This document shows positions 1,511 through 44,560 of a stretch of DNA of 46,357 bases, one piece after another. The stretch is from Lentisphaerae bacterium GWF2_44_16 (lineage in GTDB: Bacteria > Verrucomicrobiota > Lentisphaeria > Victivallales > GWF2-45-14): contig MHBF01000075.1 in the NCBI GenBank assembly GCA_001803225.1, forward strand, positions 1-46,357, in the 5' to 3' direction. Made by a program: the position numbers and the translations under genes. The notes under the pieces were generated by a model. It did no database searches. It saw only the letters and a list, made by a program, of their open reading frames with translations, and had not been told where the DNA came from. Each line of letters begins with the position of its first letter. Position 1 is the stretch's first letter.

Positions 1511-1554
1511 TCTGCCGCGAATAAATATGAAAAAGAATGGAGAAGCTTAGTTTT

Positions 1555-2664
1555 ATGGATTCAAAAGTTTATTTTCAAGCAGACGCGCTGACAGAATTTT
1601 GCCGGGAAGTTTTTATCCGGCATGGAATGACGGCTGATGACGCCGGAATAACAGCGGATGTTCTGGTAACAGCAGATATGCGCGGGATACCATCTCACGG
1701 CATCGGGCGTTTGCAACGCTATGTCAATGGCCTGAAGACAGGGCAGATGAAAGCGAACGCGGAAACAGAAATCATAAGAGATACCCCTGTATCAACGGTA
1801 ATAAACGCTAACGGCACAATGGGACCGCCCGTCAGCGTGAAAGCAATGGAAAGCGTAATAGAGAAAGCCCGTAACAATGGCGCTTCTTTCGCTTGTGTCT
1901 ATGAATCCAATCATTTCGGGATAGCAGGATATTACGCGATGATGGCCCTGAAACATGACATGATAGGAATTGCCATGACAAATACAGCGGCACTCGGAGT
2001 CCCGACTTTTGGAAGGCAGGTTATGTTCGGCACCAATCCTCTGGCTTTCTGCGCACCGGCAGAGAAGGAAGGCGCCTTCGTCCTTGACATGTCAACAACC
2101 GTGGTCTCCCGCGGCAAGATAGAAGTTTACGACCGGGAAGGCAAAGCATTGCCGCATAACTGGGCCGTCGATAAAACCGGAAAGTCCGCGACAGACGCCG
2201 GAAAGATCCTTGATGACATGTTTCACCGTTACGGCGGCGGCATACTGCCGCTGGGAGGCTTGGGGGAAATGTTCGGAGGATACAAGGGATACGGTCTTGC
2301 GGTAATGGTGGATATCCTCTGTTCTGTATTATGCGGAGCTCCATTCGGCTCGCAAATCAGCGACACAGCCACATCTTCGGCGAGGGTCAGCCACTTTTTC
2401 GGCGCAATCAAAATTGATAATTTCAGGAATGCCGGGGAATTCCGAGGGGATATGGATAAGATGCTCAGTCAACTCAGAAACACACCTGCCGCCGAGGGCG
2501 AAGAGCAAGTATATTTCGCGGGGCAGAAAGAAATGGAGCATGAGAAAAGCGCAAGAAAGAACGGGATACCTTTATCTCCGTCCACTATTAATAATCTCGG
2601 AAAAATAGCCGGAGAGTTGCAGATAGAATTCCCGGCGTCCGTAAACAAAAACAAAGGTGAGTAA
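1555..2664 (+). CDS. LDH2 family malate/L-lactate/ureidoglycolate-type dehydrogenase
   Basis: A cytoplasmic NAD(P)-dependent oxidoreductase of the LDH2 (YlbC/malate-ureidoglycolate dehydrogenase) family, about 369 residues, which is normal length. Visible family blocks are DMRGIPSHGIGRL (substrate-binding His and Arg region), SNHFGIAGYYAM, TNTAALGVPTFG, FGTNPLAFCAP, FVLDMSTTVVSRGKIE and GGYKGYGLAVMVDIL. I chose ATG 1555 because GGAGAAG lies 9 bases upstream. An in-frame ATG at 1537 would add six residues and has only a weak purine tract before it. It is directly followed by an SDR gene with no gap, suggesting joint use in sugar-acid or hydroxyacid catabolism. The exact substrate cannot be read from sequence. 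Confidence 0.88.
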   Translation: MDSKVYFQADALTEFCREVFIRHGMTADDAGITADVLVTADMRGIPSHGIGRLQRYVNGLKTGQMKANAETEIIRDTPVSTVINANGTMGPPVSVKAMESVIEKARNNGASFACVYESNHFGIAGYYAMMALKHDMIGIAMTNTAALGVPTFGRQVMFGTNPLAFCAPAEKEGAFVLDMSTTVVSRGKIEVYDREGKALPHNWAVDKTGKSATDAGKILDDMFHRYGGGILPLGGLGEMFGGYKGYGLAVMVDILCSVLCGAPFGSQISDTATSSARVSHFFGAIKIDNFRNAGEFRGDMDKMLSQLRNTPAAEGEEQVYFAGQKEMEHEKSARKNGIPLSPSTINNLGKIAGELQIEFPASVNKNKGE

Positions 2665-18178: not shown

Positions 18179-18463
18179 TTATACCTGTTTTCCAAGTGTG
18201 CCCACAACGAACAAAGCAATCAGACAAAGCAGGGACATCAGGGAAATAGCGATATTAACATATCCCAGCACAATTCCCGCCATCGCGAACCCTTTTCCGG
18301 AAGCCTCGCCTTTCTTTATGCGGTTGAGCGCGATATGACCGCATATTACAGCAGGTACGGAAAGAAAAAACATCAGACAAAATATGTAACTCAGAATTCC
18401 AAGCACCATGCTGACGATGGCCAGCGTAGCGCTTCCCGCGACAATCTGTTTATTTTCTTCCAT
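18179..18463 (-). CDS. DUF4190-type small membrane protein
   Basis: 94 residues with two hydrophobic helical segments separated by a short loop with GHIALNRIKKGEASGKGFAM, which is the signature of the DUF4190 family (small two-helix membrane proteins of unknown function). I chose the ATG at 18463 because AGGAG lies 7 bases before it; the in-frame ATG two codons upstream would almost touch the same AGGAG. It is co-directional with the CPBP-like gene that follows. Confidence 0.8.
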   Translation of the reverse strand: MEENKQIVAGSATLAIVSMVLGILSYIFCLMFFLSVPAVICGHIALNRIKKGEASGKGFAMAGIVLGYVNIAISLMSLLCLIALFVVGTLGKQV

Positions 18464-18642
18464 GAACATTCTCCTCTTTTAAAACTTAATCTAAGATAGC
18501 TTACACCTTATTACAAGCACATTTTCCTGAATTTGAACATGATGGACTATCTACGTTCCAGAAAAAGTACGTATGTGAAAAATCCTGATACTATTTTTCC
18601 CCCAGCTTGATTAATCAGATTTTCATGCTAGTGTCAATTATT

Positions 18643-18778
18643 GATTTTGATTGATGAAGAACTCCGTGTAAGCCGGAGGCGGTCGCGCCACTGTAAAACC
18701 CGTCGCGTAGGGTAAAAGCCAGACCTTCATCAAAATGAATTATGCTATGATGTCTCCGCGTCAGGGACTGGCTGAAAA
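18643..18778 (+). ncRNA. Cobalamin riboswitch, copy 1
   Basis: The conserved core is visible: AACTCCGTGTAAGCCGGAGG, GGTCGCGCCACTGT, and AAGCCAGACC after a short ACCC/GGGT stem. A closing stem is formed by ATTTTGAT plus TGATGAAG (from 18643) with CTTCATCAAAAT (18724-18735). A CTCCGCGTCAG segment follows near 18753, probably the kissing loop. The compact P6 region suggests the smaller cobalamin class. It is followed by an intrinsic terminator, so B12 binding probably causes premature termination. It shares its core with copy 2 about 200 bases downstream. Confidence 0.9.
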
Positions 18779-18792
18779 ATCTAAGATTTACT

Positions 18793-18826
18793 GCCGATGT
18801 TCCCGCAAAGGACATCGGCTTTTTTA
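18793..18826 (+). terminator. Intrinsic terminator between the two cobalamin riboswitches
   Basis: GCCGATGTTCC (18793-18803) pairs with GGACATCGGC (18810-18819) with one bulged T, followed by six T's (18820-18825). It is the likely expression platform of riboswitch copy 1. Confidence 0.85.
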
Positions 18827-18840
18827 TTTGAATTTTTGTT

Positions 18841-18965
18841 TTGAAATTTATGTGAAGAACTCCGTGCAAGCCGGAGGCGGTCGCGCCACTGTGAAACCCG
18901 TCGCGTCGGGTGAAGCCAGACCTTCACTGGAAAACTGGAATAATGCCCTCCGCGTCAGAGGTAAA
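18841..18965 (+). ncRNA. Cobalamin riboswitch, copy 2
   Basis: Same core as copy 1: AACTCCGTGCAAGCCGGAGG, GGTCGCGCCACTGT, GAAGCCAGACC, closed by TGAAG/CTTCA, then CCTCCGCGTCAGAGG as the likely kissing hairpin. No U-tract terminator follows. Instead ATCCTCCTGA (near 18990) lies before the ribosome-binding site AAAGGAG (19018-19024) and is complementary to its GGAG, so this copy may act on translation initiation. The expression-platform interpretation is inference. Confidence 0.88.
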
Positions 18966-19027
18966 AAGTGATATCTGCAGCCACTTCGATATCCTCCTGA
19001 CGGAGAGTAATTAGTCTAAAGGAGTTG

Positions 19028-19924
19028 ATGTCTGTGGAATTCTTGAAAAATGGCTTTTTAATTGCGCTGGTCGGCCTGCTCTCTTTTTCTGCTTTGGGCG
19101 AAAACAAAAAAGACGATATCAGGATAGTATCCCTTTCGCCCTCTCTTACTGAAATTATCTTCAAACTCGAAAAAGGCAGCGCAATGGCAGGACGCTCCTC
19201 TGCCTGTGATTACCCCGCGGAAATCAAAAAAATTCCGATAGCCGGAAAATATGGGGCACCCTTTCTGGAAACCCTTGTCCATCTGAAGGCGGATATAGTC
19301 GTCGCCTCATCTCTGATGGATATTTCAACGGAAAAATCTATCCAGTCGCTCGGAATAAAATTCCAGATGCTTCCGACCAAGGACATCAATGACTACTTCA
19401 AAGCCGTTGAGAGCCTCGGCGAAATACTCAACTGCAAAGAACAGGCCGCCCTTGAAATAGCGAGAGTCAAAACCGGACTTGCCGGATTTCAATCTGCCCT
19501 TAATGAAATTCCGGAAACTGAAAAACCTCTCGTTTATCTTGAGCTCTGGAACAGTCCCATGATGACCGTAGGCAAGAAGTCTTTTATCAATGACTACATT
19601 GCGTATGCGGGCGGAAAGAATATTGGGGCCTCTGTAGAAAAAGAATATTTCGCGTGTTCAGAGGAATGGGTTATTTCCTCAAATCCTCAGATTATAATAG
19701 CTCCCTCTATGGGGAAAAGTTGTGCAGCTGAAATACGAGGAAGAAAATGCTGGATTAATGTCCCGGCTGTCAAGTATGACAGAATTTATGTCGACCTGAA
19801 CAGCAATCTTATATTCCGCCTTGGCCCGAGAATGCTTGAAGGCATTGAACTGCTAAAAAGCTGTATCCAGGCAGGTAAAGGAACGAATACTGAAAGTAAT
19901 TCACTTAAGAGCAAAGTTCCGTAA
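19028..19924 (+). CDS. Cobalamin/iron-siderophore-type ABC substrate-binding protein (BtuF-like)
   Basis: About 298 residues. An N-terminal signal peptide (FLIALVGLLSFSALGE) has no lipobox Cys, so the protein should be free in the periplasm. The mature part is a class III periplasmic-binding protein: RIVSLSPSLTEIIFKLEKG opens it, and AGRSSACDYPAEIKKIPIAG and VHLKADIVVASS are typical of BtuF/FhuD-type proteins. The position directly behind two cobalamin riboswitches supports corrinoid binding. AAAGGAG ends only three bases before ATG 19028; GTG 19034 has better spacing (9) and may be the true start. No BtuC or BtuD gene is in the window. Confidence 0.88.
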   Translation: MSVEFLKNGFLIALVGLLSFSALGENKKDDIRIVSLSPSLTEIIFKLEKGSAMAGRSSACDYPAEIKKIPIAGKYGAPFLETLVHLKADIVVASSLMDISTEKSIQSLGIKFQMLPTKDINDYFKAVESLGEILNCKEQAALEIARVKTGLAGFQSALNEIPETEKPLVYLELWNSPMMTVGKKSFINDYIAYAGGKNIGASVEKEYFACSEEWVISSNPQIIIAPSMGKSCAAEIRGRKCWINVPAVKYDRIYVDLNSNLIFRLGPRMLEGIELLKSCIQAGKGTNTESNSLKSKVP

Positions 19925-19984
19925 ATTCGTGTTTTATGTTTTAATCCTTGTTTTTATAACACTGAAATAGAAAGAAAATATTTG

Positions 19985-20839
19985 ATGAGAAAAAGCTGGA
20001 AAACTGCTGACGTACTGCTCAGATTAACGACTAATATTTTCACGATGGTCGAGCTGCTTGTGGTGATTGGGATAATTATCATTCTGGCGGGGCTTCTGCT
20101 TGCCGGAGTAAATCGGGCGCGCGAACTTGGCAAGAGGACATCCTGCGCGAATAACCTGAAACAGCTCACACTGGCAAACAGCCAATACGCCTCAACCCAT
20201 CAGGCATACTGTCCGGGACGCTCAGGGGGATATTACACCGGCCAGCACTGGCATGGAAACAGAACAGACAGCAGTTTGCCGTGGAATCCCTCACAGGGTT
20301 TGCTTGTAGAATATCTTGGTGTTTCAGGGGCCATAAAAAGATGTCCATCCACAGCCATGCTCGTAGTCACAAGCACCAGCAATACCAAAAATCTTGGTTC
20401 AGGGGGGTACGGATACAATTTCACCGGAGTAGGCAGCCTCGGTTATCTGAATGGATATGGCGCATGGGAGAGCGGCATGAAACCGGAAAAAATAGAAGAA
20501 CCATCGCGTTGTTTAATGTTCGGCGATGTCGCTCACCTTCTCAATGGGGAACTTGTCGAAGCTGACGAGATGATGGCCCCCTACTCGATTTACGGGGCTA
20601 CCGCGGACAAGCTGAAAACAAAAAAGCCTACGACTACAGCCAATTACGCAAAACTCCATTTCAGACACAACCAGGCTGTTAATGTCTCATGGGTTGACGG
20701 TCACCTGAGCATAGAAAAAGTTACCTACTCAAACGCGGAGGCTGATGACACTGAAAGAGCTGTGCGCAATCTCGGTTTCTTCGGCACTCCTGACAACAGC
20801 CTCTATGATCCCTGGAAAGACGATATCCCAGAAGAATAA
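19985..20839 (+). CDS. Type II secretion pseudopilin-like protein with H-X9-DG motif
   Basis: 284 residues. The N-terminal helix [20 protein letters not shown] is a type IV prepilin-like signal with Glu at the fifth position after the predicted cleavage site. The Gly expected at -1 is absent (preceding residues are Asn-Ile), as in many PVC homologues. [20 protein letters not shown] follows, and near the C-terminus [12 protein letters not shown] gives the H-X9-DG motif of the DUF1559-like/prepilin group expanded in Lentisphaerota and Planctomycetota. ATG 19985 is preferred over the adjacent TTG. It lies between the BtuF-like gene and cbiA; any B12 link is from position only. Confidence 0.85.
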
Positions 20840-21509: not shown

Positions 21510-22898
21510 ATGGAGAATTCAGAAAATAAAATCAGTGCGTTCTGCATCGCCGGAACAAGTTCAGGCGATGGTAAAACAACCGTTACCCTGGCCCTTCTGC
21601 GCGCTCTTTACCGCCGGGGGCTGGCCCCTCAGCCTTTTAAGTGCGGGCCAGACTACATAGACCCTTCATTTCATAATATCGCGTCTAAAAAACGTTCCCG
21701 AAATCTGGATTGCTGGATGATGGGAAAGCAAGAAGTCAAAACCTCTTTTGCCAGTGCCGTCCAGAACGCAGGTTCTGCGCTTGTTGAAGGTGTCATGGGA
21801 CTCTTTGATGGGGCAAATCCCGTTTCACTTACAGGCAGTACGGCGGAAACCGCGGCACTTCTTGAAATACCCGTTATTCTCGTTGTCAACTGCCGGGGAA
21901 TGGCCGGGAGCATAGCGGCCATTGTAAAAGGATATTCCGAATACTGCCATGACATAAAGGTAATCGGCGTAATCGCCAATCAGACCGGTTCAGACGCTCA
22001 CGCCGAAATACTTCGCGAAGCATTAAAAGCTTCCGGCATGCCGCCACTGCTGGGCTGCCTGCCGCGCAATGAAAAATGGAAATTGCCGGAAAGGCATCTC
22101 GGGCTCCTTCCCTTCACAGAAAATTCAAAATCAGAGGCATGGTTTGACGAACTTGCCGATGCCGCTGAAAAATATATCGACATCGACCAAATTATGGAAA
22201 TCAGTAAAATTACGCGTCCGTCTGTCCCCGTCAGGAAATGTCCCTCAATTTCAGGACGCCTCGCAATTGCCGATGATGAGGCTTTTCACTTCTACTATGA
22301 GGACAATCTCGATATTCTCAGAGCAAACGGCATTGAGCTTGTGAAATTTTCCCCTTTGCATGACACCGCCCTGCCCGCGGAAATCGGAGGCATATATATT
22401 GGCGGCGGCTTCCCTGAGGTTTTTGCGGAACAGCTTGAAAAAAACTCGGATATGCGCCAGGCAGTAAAAGAATTCGCATCCGGCGGCGGAATAGTCTATG
22501 CCGAATGCGGCGGCTACATGTATCTCTCATCCTCTATCCGCGATAACGGCAGAGAATACGAAATGTGCGATCTGATACCAGCCAAAATACGCATGGGAGA
22601 AAAACTCCGCTCGCTGGGATATCGCGAAGTCAGAAGCCTCTCTGACACTTTTCTCGGCCCTTCAGGGACCCTGATAAGAGGCCATGAATTTCACTGGTCC
22701 GCTGAAGAATTCGACAATAAGCCCCAAGCTTTATGGCTTGCCTCCGACGCAAATAAAAAAGCGCCTGCTTATGAGTGCGGTTATCACAATGGGAATATAT
22801 GCGCAAGTTATATTCACCTGCACTGGGCGTCCTGTCCTGAAGCCGCCGCGAATTTTGCCGAAGCAATCATAAAACAATATCCCATCGGCAGAAAATAA
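21510..22898 (+). CDS. cbiA: Cobyrinate a,c-diamide synthase
   Basis: 462 residues, usual length. It amidates the a and c side chains of cobyrinic (or hydrogenobyrinic) acid with glutamine and ATP in cobalamin synthesis. The N-terminal ATPase domain has GTSSGDGKTTVTLALL (P-loop), FKCGPDYIDPSFH, and VEGVMGLFDG. The C-terminal class I glutamine amidotransferase domain has GGGFPEVFAEQLE, the nucleophilic Cys in VYAECGGYMYLS, and His in HLHWAS near the end. It shares the strand with the riboswitch-controlled BtuF-like gene but is separated from the previous gene by 106 bases, so it may have its own promoter. No other cobalamin-synthesis genes are in the window. Confidence 0.96.
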   Translation: MENSENKISAFCIAGTSSGDGKTTVTLALLRALYRRGLAPQPFKCGPDYIDPSFHNIASKKRSRNLDCWMMGKQEVKTSFASAVQNAGSALVEGVMGLFDGANPVSLTGSTAETAALLEIPVILVVNCRGMAGSIAAIVKGYSEYCHDIKVIGVIANQTGSDAHAEILREALKASGMPPLLGCLPRNEKWKLPERHLGLLPFTENSKSEAWFDELADAAEKYIDIDQIMEISKITRPSVPVRKCPSISGRLAIADDEAFHFYYEDNLDILRANGIELVKFSPLHDTALPAEIGGIYIGGGFPEVFAEQLEKNSDMRQAVKEFASGGGIVYAECGGYMYLSSSIRDNGREYEMCDLIPAKIRMGEKLRSLGYREVRSLSDTFLGPSGTLIRGHEFHWSAEEFDNKPQALWLASDANKKAPAYECGYHNGNICASYIHLHWASCPEAAANFAEAIIKQYPIGRK

Positions 22899-23805: not shown

Positions 23806-23894
23806 GATTGTGCAAATCATTCGTAATCCATGCTAAAGACATTCCTCCGCTGATGCGCTATAATTTTCTCATAGTCAAAAAGAGGAGTTATACT

Positions 23895-24845
23895 ATGGAC
23901 GCAAAAACAGTAAAAGAATTCGCGAAGGAATGCGGCGCTGATATTGTCGGAATAGCCAATATCGAAAGATTCGAAGGCGCGCCCAAACAGTTCGATCCGA
24001 GATATATAATGCCGGAAGCAAAATCAATGGTGGTTCTGGGCTTTCGTATTTTCAGGGGTCTTTTGAGAGGGATTGAGGAAGGGACGCTTTTTGCCAACTA
24101 TTCCTCAATGGGATACGCGGGAATAAATAAGGTGCAGATGCCGACTGTCCTCTGGAATTTCACAAAGATTTTCGAGGATGAAGGTTATGAAGCGTTACCT
24201 TTCCATAATGATTTTCCATGGAACGCCATATCCACTGCCACCGGAAAGATGAAAGAAAATTGGAGCAGGCCTGTTTCCCCGGATAAACCGGCGCCGGACG
24301 TATTCATACACATGCGCATAGCCGCTTTCTGCGCGGGACTCGGCGAAATCGGCTACAGTAAAGTTTTTCTGACCCCGGAATTCGGTCCGCGCGTCAGATT
24401 CGGATGCGTTCTTACGGAAGCCCCTCTTGACCCTGACCCGTTATATGAAGGCCCTCCCCTTTGCGATAAATGTATGGCCTGCGTCAAGGCTTGTAGCGGA
24501 AATGCCATAAGCGCCACTGAAACAGTCAAAGTCAAAATAGCCGGACGTGATGTGGAATGGGGCAAACTTGACGAACACAAATGCTCTATCGCGTTTCAGG
24601 GCGGGAAAAATGATGTGGCTCCTGACGGCGAAGAATTGAAATATGCTCAATATGACGCAAAACCCAATGAATACAATCCTTTCATTGCAAGCCCCGGCCC
24701 ATTATATGGATACGGAAGGGCTATCGAAGGCGGCAGAGGTTGCGTGAGAGCATGCATGATACATCTGGAACAGCAGGGGAAACTCAAGAATAAATTCAAG
24801 ATGCCTTTTCGCAGACGCAAACCGTGGAAAATGGAAATCGAATAG
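23895..24845 (+). CDS. QueG-like iron-sulfur protein (epoxyqueuosine reductase-related)
   Basis: About 316 residues. The N-terminus (DAKTVKEFAKECGADIVGIA) and the central fold (FCAGLGEIGYSKVFLTPEFGPRVRFGCVLTEAPL, cited in parts) match the QueG/reductive-dehalogenase-related fold that in QueG binds cobalamin. Cluster 1 is complete: CDKCMACVKAC, but followed by Ser rather than Pro. The second site is unusual, with HKCS and GCVRACM. It is probably not true QueG, since family HEAT repeats are absent. ATG 23895 has AGGAG 7 bases upstream; the frame stays open to 23808 but without a ribosome site. A corrinoid link fits the location after cbiA; the substrate is unknown. Confidence 0.75.
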   Translation: MDAKTVKEFAKECGADIVGIANIERFEGAPKQFDPRYIMPEAKSMVVLGFRIFRGLLRGIEEGTLFANYSSMGYAGINKVQMPTVLWNFTKIFEDEGYEALPFHNDFPWNAISTATGKMKENWSRPVSPDKPAPDVFIHMRIAAFCAGLGEIGYSKVFLTPEFGPRVRFGCVLTEAPLDPDPLYEGPPLCDKCMACVKACSGNAISATETVKVKIAGRDVEWGKLDEHKCSIAFQGGKNDVAPDGEELKYAQYDAKPNEYNPFIASPGPLYGYGRAIEGGRGCVRACMIHLEQQGKLKNKFKMPFRRRKPWKMEIE

Positions 24846-44401: not shown

Positions 44402-44560
44402 ACAGCATCCTCTTTCATCCAGACTTTACTGTCGGTTATGGATTTGCACCATATCAGTTCCCCGTATGCGTAACGGAGAAGTCGCGGACTTTTACCGCCG
44501 GTCAGGAATTTTTCTTTCCTTCTACTAAAGGAAAGAAATCACCTTGCCCTGAAGATTTTC
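44402..44560 (-). ncRNA. FMN riboswitch (RFN element)
   Basis: On the minus strand the conserved blocks appear in order: ATCTTCAGGGCAAGGTGA, a variable hairpin with CTTTCC/GGAAAG, TTCCTGACCGGCGGTA, AGTCCGCGAC, a variable CCGT/ACGG stem, TGATATGGTGCAAATCCAT, AACCGACAGTAAAGTCTGG and ATGAAAGAGGATGC closing the first stem. When bound by FMN it should promote the downstream terminator and shut the riboflavin operon. Confidence 0.96.

Follow-up and report, generated by a model that had tools for sequence, protein, structure and literature searches.

Tandem riboswitches are rare natural experiments on the ways in which RNA can make gene control sharper or add layers to it. Among SAM riboswitches, bi-mechanism tandems are known as SAM-II/SAM-V and SAM-II doublets, as described in the survey by Sherlock et al. 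(2022, PMC9481103). The same survey reports 26 AdoCbl doublets and places them under pseudo-cooperative systems, their platforms not having been comprehensively assessed, and an AdoCbl doublet of mixed transcription/translation output receives no separate mention in the text consulted; tandem arrangement is found in <1% of AdoCbl leaders (PMC2258182). The term 'dual expression platforms' has been applied to terminator hairpins that contain the ribosome site (PMC2258182). In this report, we describe a leader from a 46,357-nt contig of Lentisphaerae bacterium GWF2_44_16 (hereafter the window, meaning this whole stretch of DNA), which we consider likely to be a homotypic tandem cobalamin riboswitch whose copies differ in output but are both switched OFF by ligand, acting in series before btuF.

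Two cobalamin aptamers before a btuF-like gene

An earlier sequence-only reading had placed two complete cobalamin aptamers with nearly the same core in series at this site, and the covariance search bore this out. By cmscan, RF01482 (AdoCbl) scores both copies and not only one, each as a full-length, significant match covering model positions 1-149 of 149 (copy 1, 39.9 bits, E 8.7e-6; copy 2, 35.1 bits, E 1.1e-4; whole-genome E-values of 1.5e-5 and 2.0e-4, respectively; Table 1). Both scores lie 10-15 bits under the RF01482 gathering score (50 bits), and for this reason the default Rfam scan of the window reported no cobalamin riboswitch at 18632-18973, while a scan by E-value recovers both copies. 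For RF00174 (Cobalamin), copy 1 scores 28.2 bits, below the gathering score of 31.5 bits, and copy 2 is absent among the matches listed. A Gut-1 match at 18889-19016 (E 3.2) was set aside as chance. The window copies share with RF01482 (clan CL00101, together with RF00174) the alignment over the full length, the GCCACUGU and AGYCAG blocks and P13; they differ from it in L5, which reads UCGCG and not UCCCG, the general L5 consensus (PMC10653944), and in L13, which is altered to CGCG. L5-L13 kissing complementarity, UCGCG with CGCG, is present in both copies. Over 62 nt (18655-18716 and 18853-18914, a spacing of 198 nt), the two copies agree at 94% of positions, and a second block of 14 nt, AAGCCAGACCTTCA, is identical between them. 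In an alignment of 19 aptamers, the nearest relative of each copy is the other (81% across the aligned core, compared with 71-73% for the next), which fits duplication within this lineage. Both copies are complete aptamers of the AdoCbl type and are predicted to bind cobalamin.

The sub-cut-off Rfam scores are explained by a lineage variant of the aptamer. A covariance model, R1, was built from a seed of the two window copies plus 17 aptamers from elsewhere, and among the 137 genomes in the order 132 gave R1 matches, spanning all of its 48 genera, as did 163 of the 198 genomes of the class at E <= 1e-9; because both window copies are in the seed, their own R1 scores are circular, and RF01482 supplies the independent evidence. 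With aptamer positions in relatives taken from covariance alignments, UCGCG proved to be the commonest L5 in the lineage among 117 aptamers, the window L13 carrying the matching CGCG, and L5 and L13 co-change at three positions in a compensatory manner (Table 1), in support of the kissing pair. The same 117 aptamers include two exceptions that are not Watson-Crick, UCCCG with CGAG and UCGAG with CCCG.

Table 1. Features of the tandem leader and its gene run (positions in the window), with loci of related leaders
Feature	Position or locus	Strand	Remarks
Aptamer copy 1, including P13 hairpin	18632-18780	+	core 18651-18734; RF01482; R1 84.2 bits (copy in R1 seed)
Antiterminator strand GATGTCT	18749-18755	+	overlaps P13 5' arm; partner GGACATC 18810-18816
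P13/L13 hairpin, copy 1	18752-18768	+	GTCTC-CGCGTCA-GGGAC; L13 5'-CGCG complements L5 UCGCG; hairpin kept in relatives
Intrinsic terminator	18793-18825	+	stem 18793-18819 plus U-tract
Aptamer copy 2, including P13 hairpin	18834-18973	+	core 18849-18931; RF01482, likeness to copy 1
P13/L13 hairpin, copy 2	18947-18961	+	CCTC-CGCGTCA-GAGG
Anti-sequestor strand CTCCGCGTCAG	18948-18958	+	P13 5' arm and L13; alternative partner 18997-19005; inverted repeat I12
Sequestor strand GATATCCTCCTGAC	18988-19001	+	partner 19014-19032 (Shine-Dalgarno and start region)
Shine-Dalgarno AGGAG (19020-19024) and ATG (19028)	19020-19030	+	from sequence; alternative start GTG 19034
BtuF-like periplasmic binding protein	19028-19924	+	PF01497, E 2.1e-23; apparent signal peptide (by eye)
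Prepilin-like DUF1559 protein	19982-20839	+	PF07596, E 2.1e-8; same gene run as btuF
CobB, cobyrinate a,c-diamide synthase	21510-22898	+	NF002204, 517 bits, cut-off 254
L5 UUGCG with L13 CGCA	L120, L126
L5 UCACG with L13 CGUG	L124
L5 UCGUG with L13 CACG	L141
L5 UGGCG with L13 CGCU	L075
P13a (loop CGCGUCA), terminator, second matching-loop hairpin	L008, L010, L012, L018, L043, L052, L129, L158
Both L13 hairpins, no terminator	L022, L103, L105, L114, L130

Downstream of the tandem, the gene order is BtuF-like, DUF1559 prepilin-like, a protein without assigned function and CobB; the BtuF model NF002894 matches the first of these with E 2.6e-18, under the model's cut-off. The nearest BtuF homologue (genome G087, 64% identity) stands behind a single aptamer with only a ribosome-site hairpin, and the homologue in a sister genus (genome G001, 51%) behind a single aptamer with only a terminator (L074 and L075, respectively). 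Compared in this way, the window appears to combine both control kinds of its btuF relatives, one per aptamer, and the leaders together provide a matched btuF set (terminator only, ribosome site only, both) for asking why there should be two decision points. Among the matches listed for the 198 genomes of the class, there is no other same-strand aptamer pair within 500 nt. At one locus (L034, G012:C24), aptamers of the same type lie back to back on opposite strands, at 1535-1615 (-) and 1784-1862 (+), and apparently serve divergent genes. In the window's own genome, a canonical RF00174 riboswitch (94.9 bits; L001 1501-1689, G000:C115) has a second BtuF-like gene on one side and, on the other, a radical SAM-like gene assigned by eye. 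Elsewhere in the window, an iron-sulfur protein near the B12 genes (23808-24845) is weakly like reductive dehalogenase/QueG models and is possibly a corrinoid enzyme, and an ordinary FMN riboswitch (44403-44560, - strand, 91.9 bits) precedes RibBA and RibH; further downstream are NusB and an SRP54-type GTPase (FtsY-like).

A prepilin signature (F-T-L-I-E-L-L-V-V type, DUF1559-like) occurs within 420 nt after 66 of 113 (58%) R1-matched aptamers, compared with 18 of 1181 control chunks, which suggests a B12-controlled prepilin-like family. When the prepilin-like gene of the window was compared with 69 prepilin-like homologues from its own genome, only one was close (G000:C77:38748-39554; 52%, 265 bits, the next reaching 122), and this is the other riboswitch-linked gene, behind CbiZ. 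Because close likeness is confined to the riboswitch-linked pair, the B12-linked prepilin-like proteins look like a distinct subfamily. The aptamer-prepilin link hints at a surface or uptake system under B12 control, of which we found no description in the literature searched.

Candidate outputs of the two copies

The folding energies given here are thermodynamic only; cobalamin, the kissing loop, co-transcriptional folding and ribosomes lie outside the model. After the first aptamer, where the sequence-only reading had seen an intrinsic terminator, a 10-pair stem (18793-18819) is followed by TTTTTTATTT, and its energy of -15.9 kcal/mol is far below that of shuffled sequences (mean -5.4, sd 2.1). 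In the unconstrained ensemble, 18749-18755 pairs with 18810-18816 and disrupts the terminator; when P13 (18752-18768) is forced, the terminator becomes the best structure. The antiterminator duplex of the window alone (-13.2 kcal/mol) is marginal, being matched by 54 of 1000 shuffles, and the pairing of the P13 5' strand with the terminator 3' half in relatives gives a pooled Fisher P of 7e-6 over 12 other loci, two of which are close relatives. These folds point to an action of copy 1 on transcription, through a terminator under P13 control.

Inspection of the sequence after copy 2 revealed no intrinsic terminator. The segment described earlier as able to pair with the Shine-Dalgarno sequence, ATCCTCCTGA (18991-19000), is present and turns out to be the mid-part of a longer helix, in which GATATCCTCCTGAC pairs with 19014-19032 and covers AGGAG and the start region. 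The start site needs a correction: TTG at 19025 abuts the Shine-Dalgarno sequence, and ATG 19028 or GTG 19034 is more plausible as the start. The fold of copy 2 affects the ribosome site, in favour of the earlier reading: in RNA that ends at 19045 or 19060, opening the Shine-Dalgarno sequence and start takes 10.2-12.7 kcal/mol when P13 is forced, compared with 5.1-5.5 kcal/mol when the anti-sequestor helix is forced instead. The anti-sequestor duplex (-13.5 kcal/mol) is equalled by just 5 of 1000 shuffles, and the sequestor (anti-SD) duplex (-16.3 kcal/mol) by 43 of 1000, which makes the latter marginal. In RNA lengthened to 19075, the unconstrained fold hides the ribosome site even when P13 is absent, and the ON state therefore depends on co-transcriptional folding or ribosomes. 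For RNA ending at or before 19060, the in silico data suggest that copy 2 governs access to the ribosome site. By eye, one relative (L123) has AAACTTTCC opposite GGAAAGTTT at the Shine-Dalgarno sequence and CTGAC opposite GTCAG of P13, and a similar translational platform logic with other sequences was recognized at L080/L081, L105/L111 and L103.

A proposed serial OFF switch and its alternatives

In silico, both aptamers, the terminator and the mutually exclusive pairings are supported. A serial transcription-then-translation OFF switch is the best reading because copy 1 has a terminator and an antiterminator and forcing P13 of copy 2 buries the Shine-Dalgarno sequence and start; the two-stage switch anticipated from the sequence is thus supported by the forced folds and by the same platform logic in relatives. 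For the window RNA, we infer ligand binding, stabilisation by the kissing loop and the following order of events. Without cobalamin, the P13 5' strand of copy 1 would pair downstream and break the terminator, leading to read-through, and that of copy 2 would occupy part of the sequestor, making the ribosome site easier to open. Once cobalamin is bound, L5 UCGCG would kiss L13 CGCG and lock P13; the terminator would form at copy 1, and in transcripts that escaped it the copy 2 sequestor would cover AGGAG and the btuF start codon. When B12 is plentiful, synthesis of the transporter mRNA would stop and mRNA already made would be silenced too. The tandem is predicted to give a steeper B12 dose response, sharper or graded.

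It is also conceivable, but in our view unlikely, that only copy 1 is functional and that copy 2 is a recent duplicate with a decaying platform, which leaves the ribosome site permanently semi-hidden or usable. Such decay would be expected to break the core, P13/L13 or the alternative pairing of copy 2, yet copy 2 retains the core positions, a P13 carrying the correct L13 and an alternative pairing that is significant (5/1000 shuffles), and against these stand its lower RF01482 score (35.1 vs 39.9 bits) and the longer RNA, which hides the ribosome site without copy 2 P13. The tandem is found in no relative among the matches listed, which also fits a recent duplicate, and therefore no direct covariation is available for the copy 2 platform. 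Instead of plain translational repression, copy 2 might act at the RNA level, ribosome exclusion being followed by Rho-dependent termination or decay of the mRNA, or it might be an ON switch. We regard this as improbable: although copy 2 has no intrinsic terminator and the local hairpin CTCC-TGAC-GGAG (18994-19005) looks like a terminator stem that lacks its U-tract, the probability of this hairpin in the ensembles is 0, and the sequestor covers the Shine-Dalgarno sequence and start codon, with relatives of the same logic also putting their sequestor on the Shine-Dalgarno sequence. Least probable of all is a promoter between the copies, producing separate transcripts and no serial action, since the U-tract and copy 2 are only ~8-28 nt apart, even if this spacer (18826-18850) is AT-rich. 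No sigma-70-like site was found in 18460-19060, either between the copies or before copy 1, and this test is weak because it found none ahead of copy 1 either.

Related leaders and known systems

The serial switch of the window may have a counterpart in leaders with one sensor. In at least 13 of 117 relatives, a single aptamer is followed by two L13 hairpins able to pair with L5; in eight of these a terminator stands between the hairpins (Table 1). The second hairpin, UUGUGCGCGCAACACA or similar, ends 0-12 nt ahead of the Shine-Dalgarno sequence. Two or more L13-type hairpins are present in 11 of 74 leaders, where shuffles predict 0.14, and a second hairpin adjoins the Shine-Dalgarno sequence at 7 of 12 terminator loci, against 0.05 expected. 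At unrelated gene starts, the second hairpin occurs in about 1 of 166; this control at first gave 13 of 210, and 11 of 12 distinct cases, being genes behind aptamers missed by the text pattern, were excluded. Aptamers from other orders (L163 and L166) have only the second hairpin type, close to the start, and this type may therefore be older. We see an even chance that one aptamer serves two outputs here, L5 pairing with either P13a, directly behind the aptamer (terminator, at least eight loci), or P13b, UGUGCGCGYAACACA (0-12 nt before the Shine-Dalgarno sequence). The single sensor would then decide termination first, and kissing of the second hairpin would afterwards block ribosomes. That both hairpins kiss L5 is a prediction; if true, these relatives extend the kissing-loop mechanism, because one L5 must choose between two L13 during transcription. 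The window tandem would be an alternative route to this logic, by duplication of a whole aptamer.

Two expression platforms on one aptamer were not encountered in the literature searched, which includes few subscription journals; the predicted two-hairpin leader is more novel than the tandem. It shares with the dual expression platforms (PMC2258182) a single leader that controls transcription and, failing that, translation; unlike them, it uses two separate L13 hairpins, the first ahead of the terminator and the second by the ribosome site. The logic of the corrinoid riboswitch of P. megaterium metE (PMC10653944) is also common to the window, in that P13 is locked by a kissing loop and the terminator then forms, while the unbound RNA adopts an antiterminator. 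With the AdoCbl doublets (PMC2258182 and PMC9481103), the window shares two serial cobalamin aptamers, each with its own platform, and mixed-output pairs of this class are not singled out in the literature searched. Similarly to the SAM bi-mechanism tandems (PMC9481103), one leader here holds two complete aptamers for one ligand class, the first followed in silico by an intrinsic terminator under P13 control and the second controlling in silico the access to the ribosome site without a terminator, with a caveat for RNA beyond 19060; the differences are that the ligand class is cobalamin and that both aptamers belong to one class, their cores being 94% identical. Since both AdoCbl doublets and bi-mechanism tandems are known, the window tandem combines known kinds in a new way and is not in itself a new kind.
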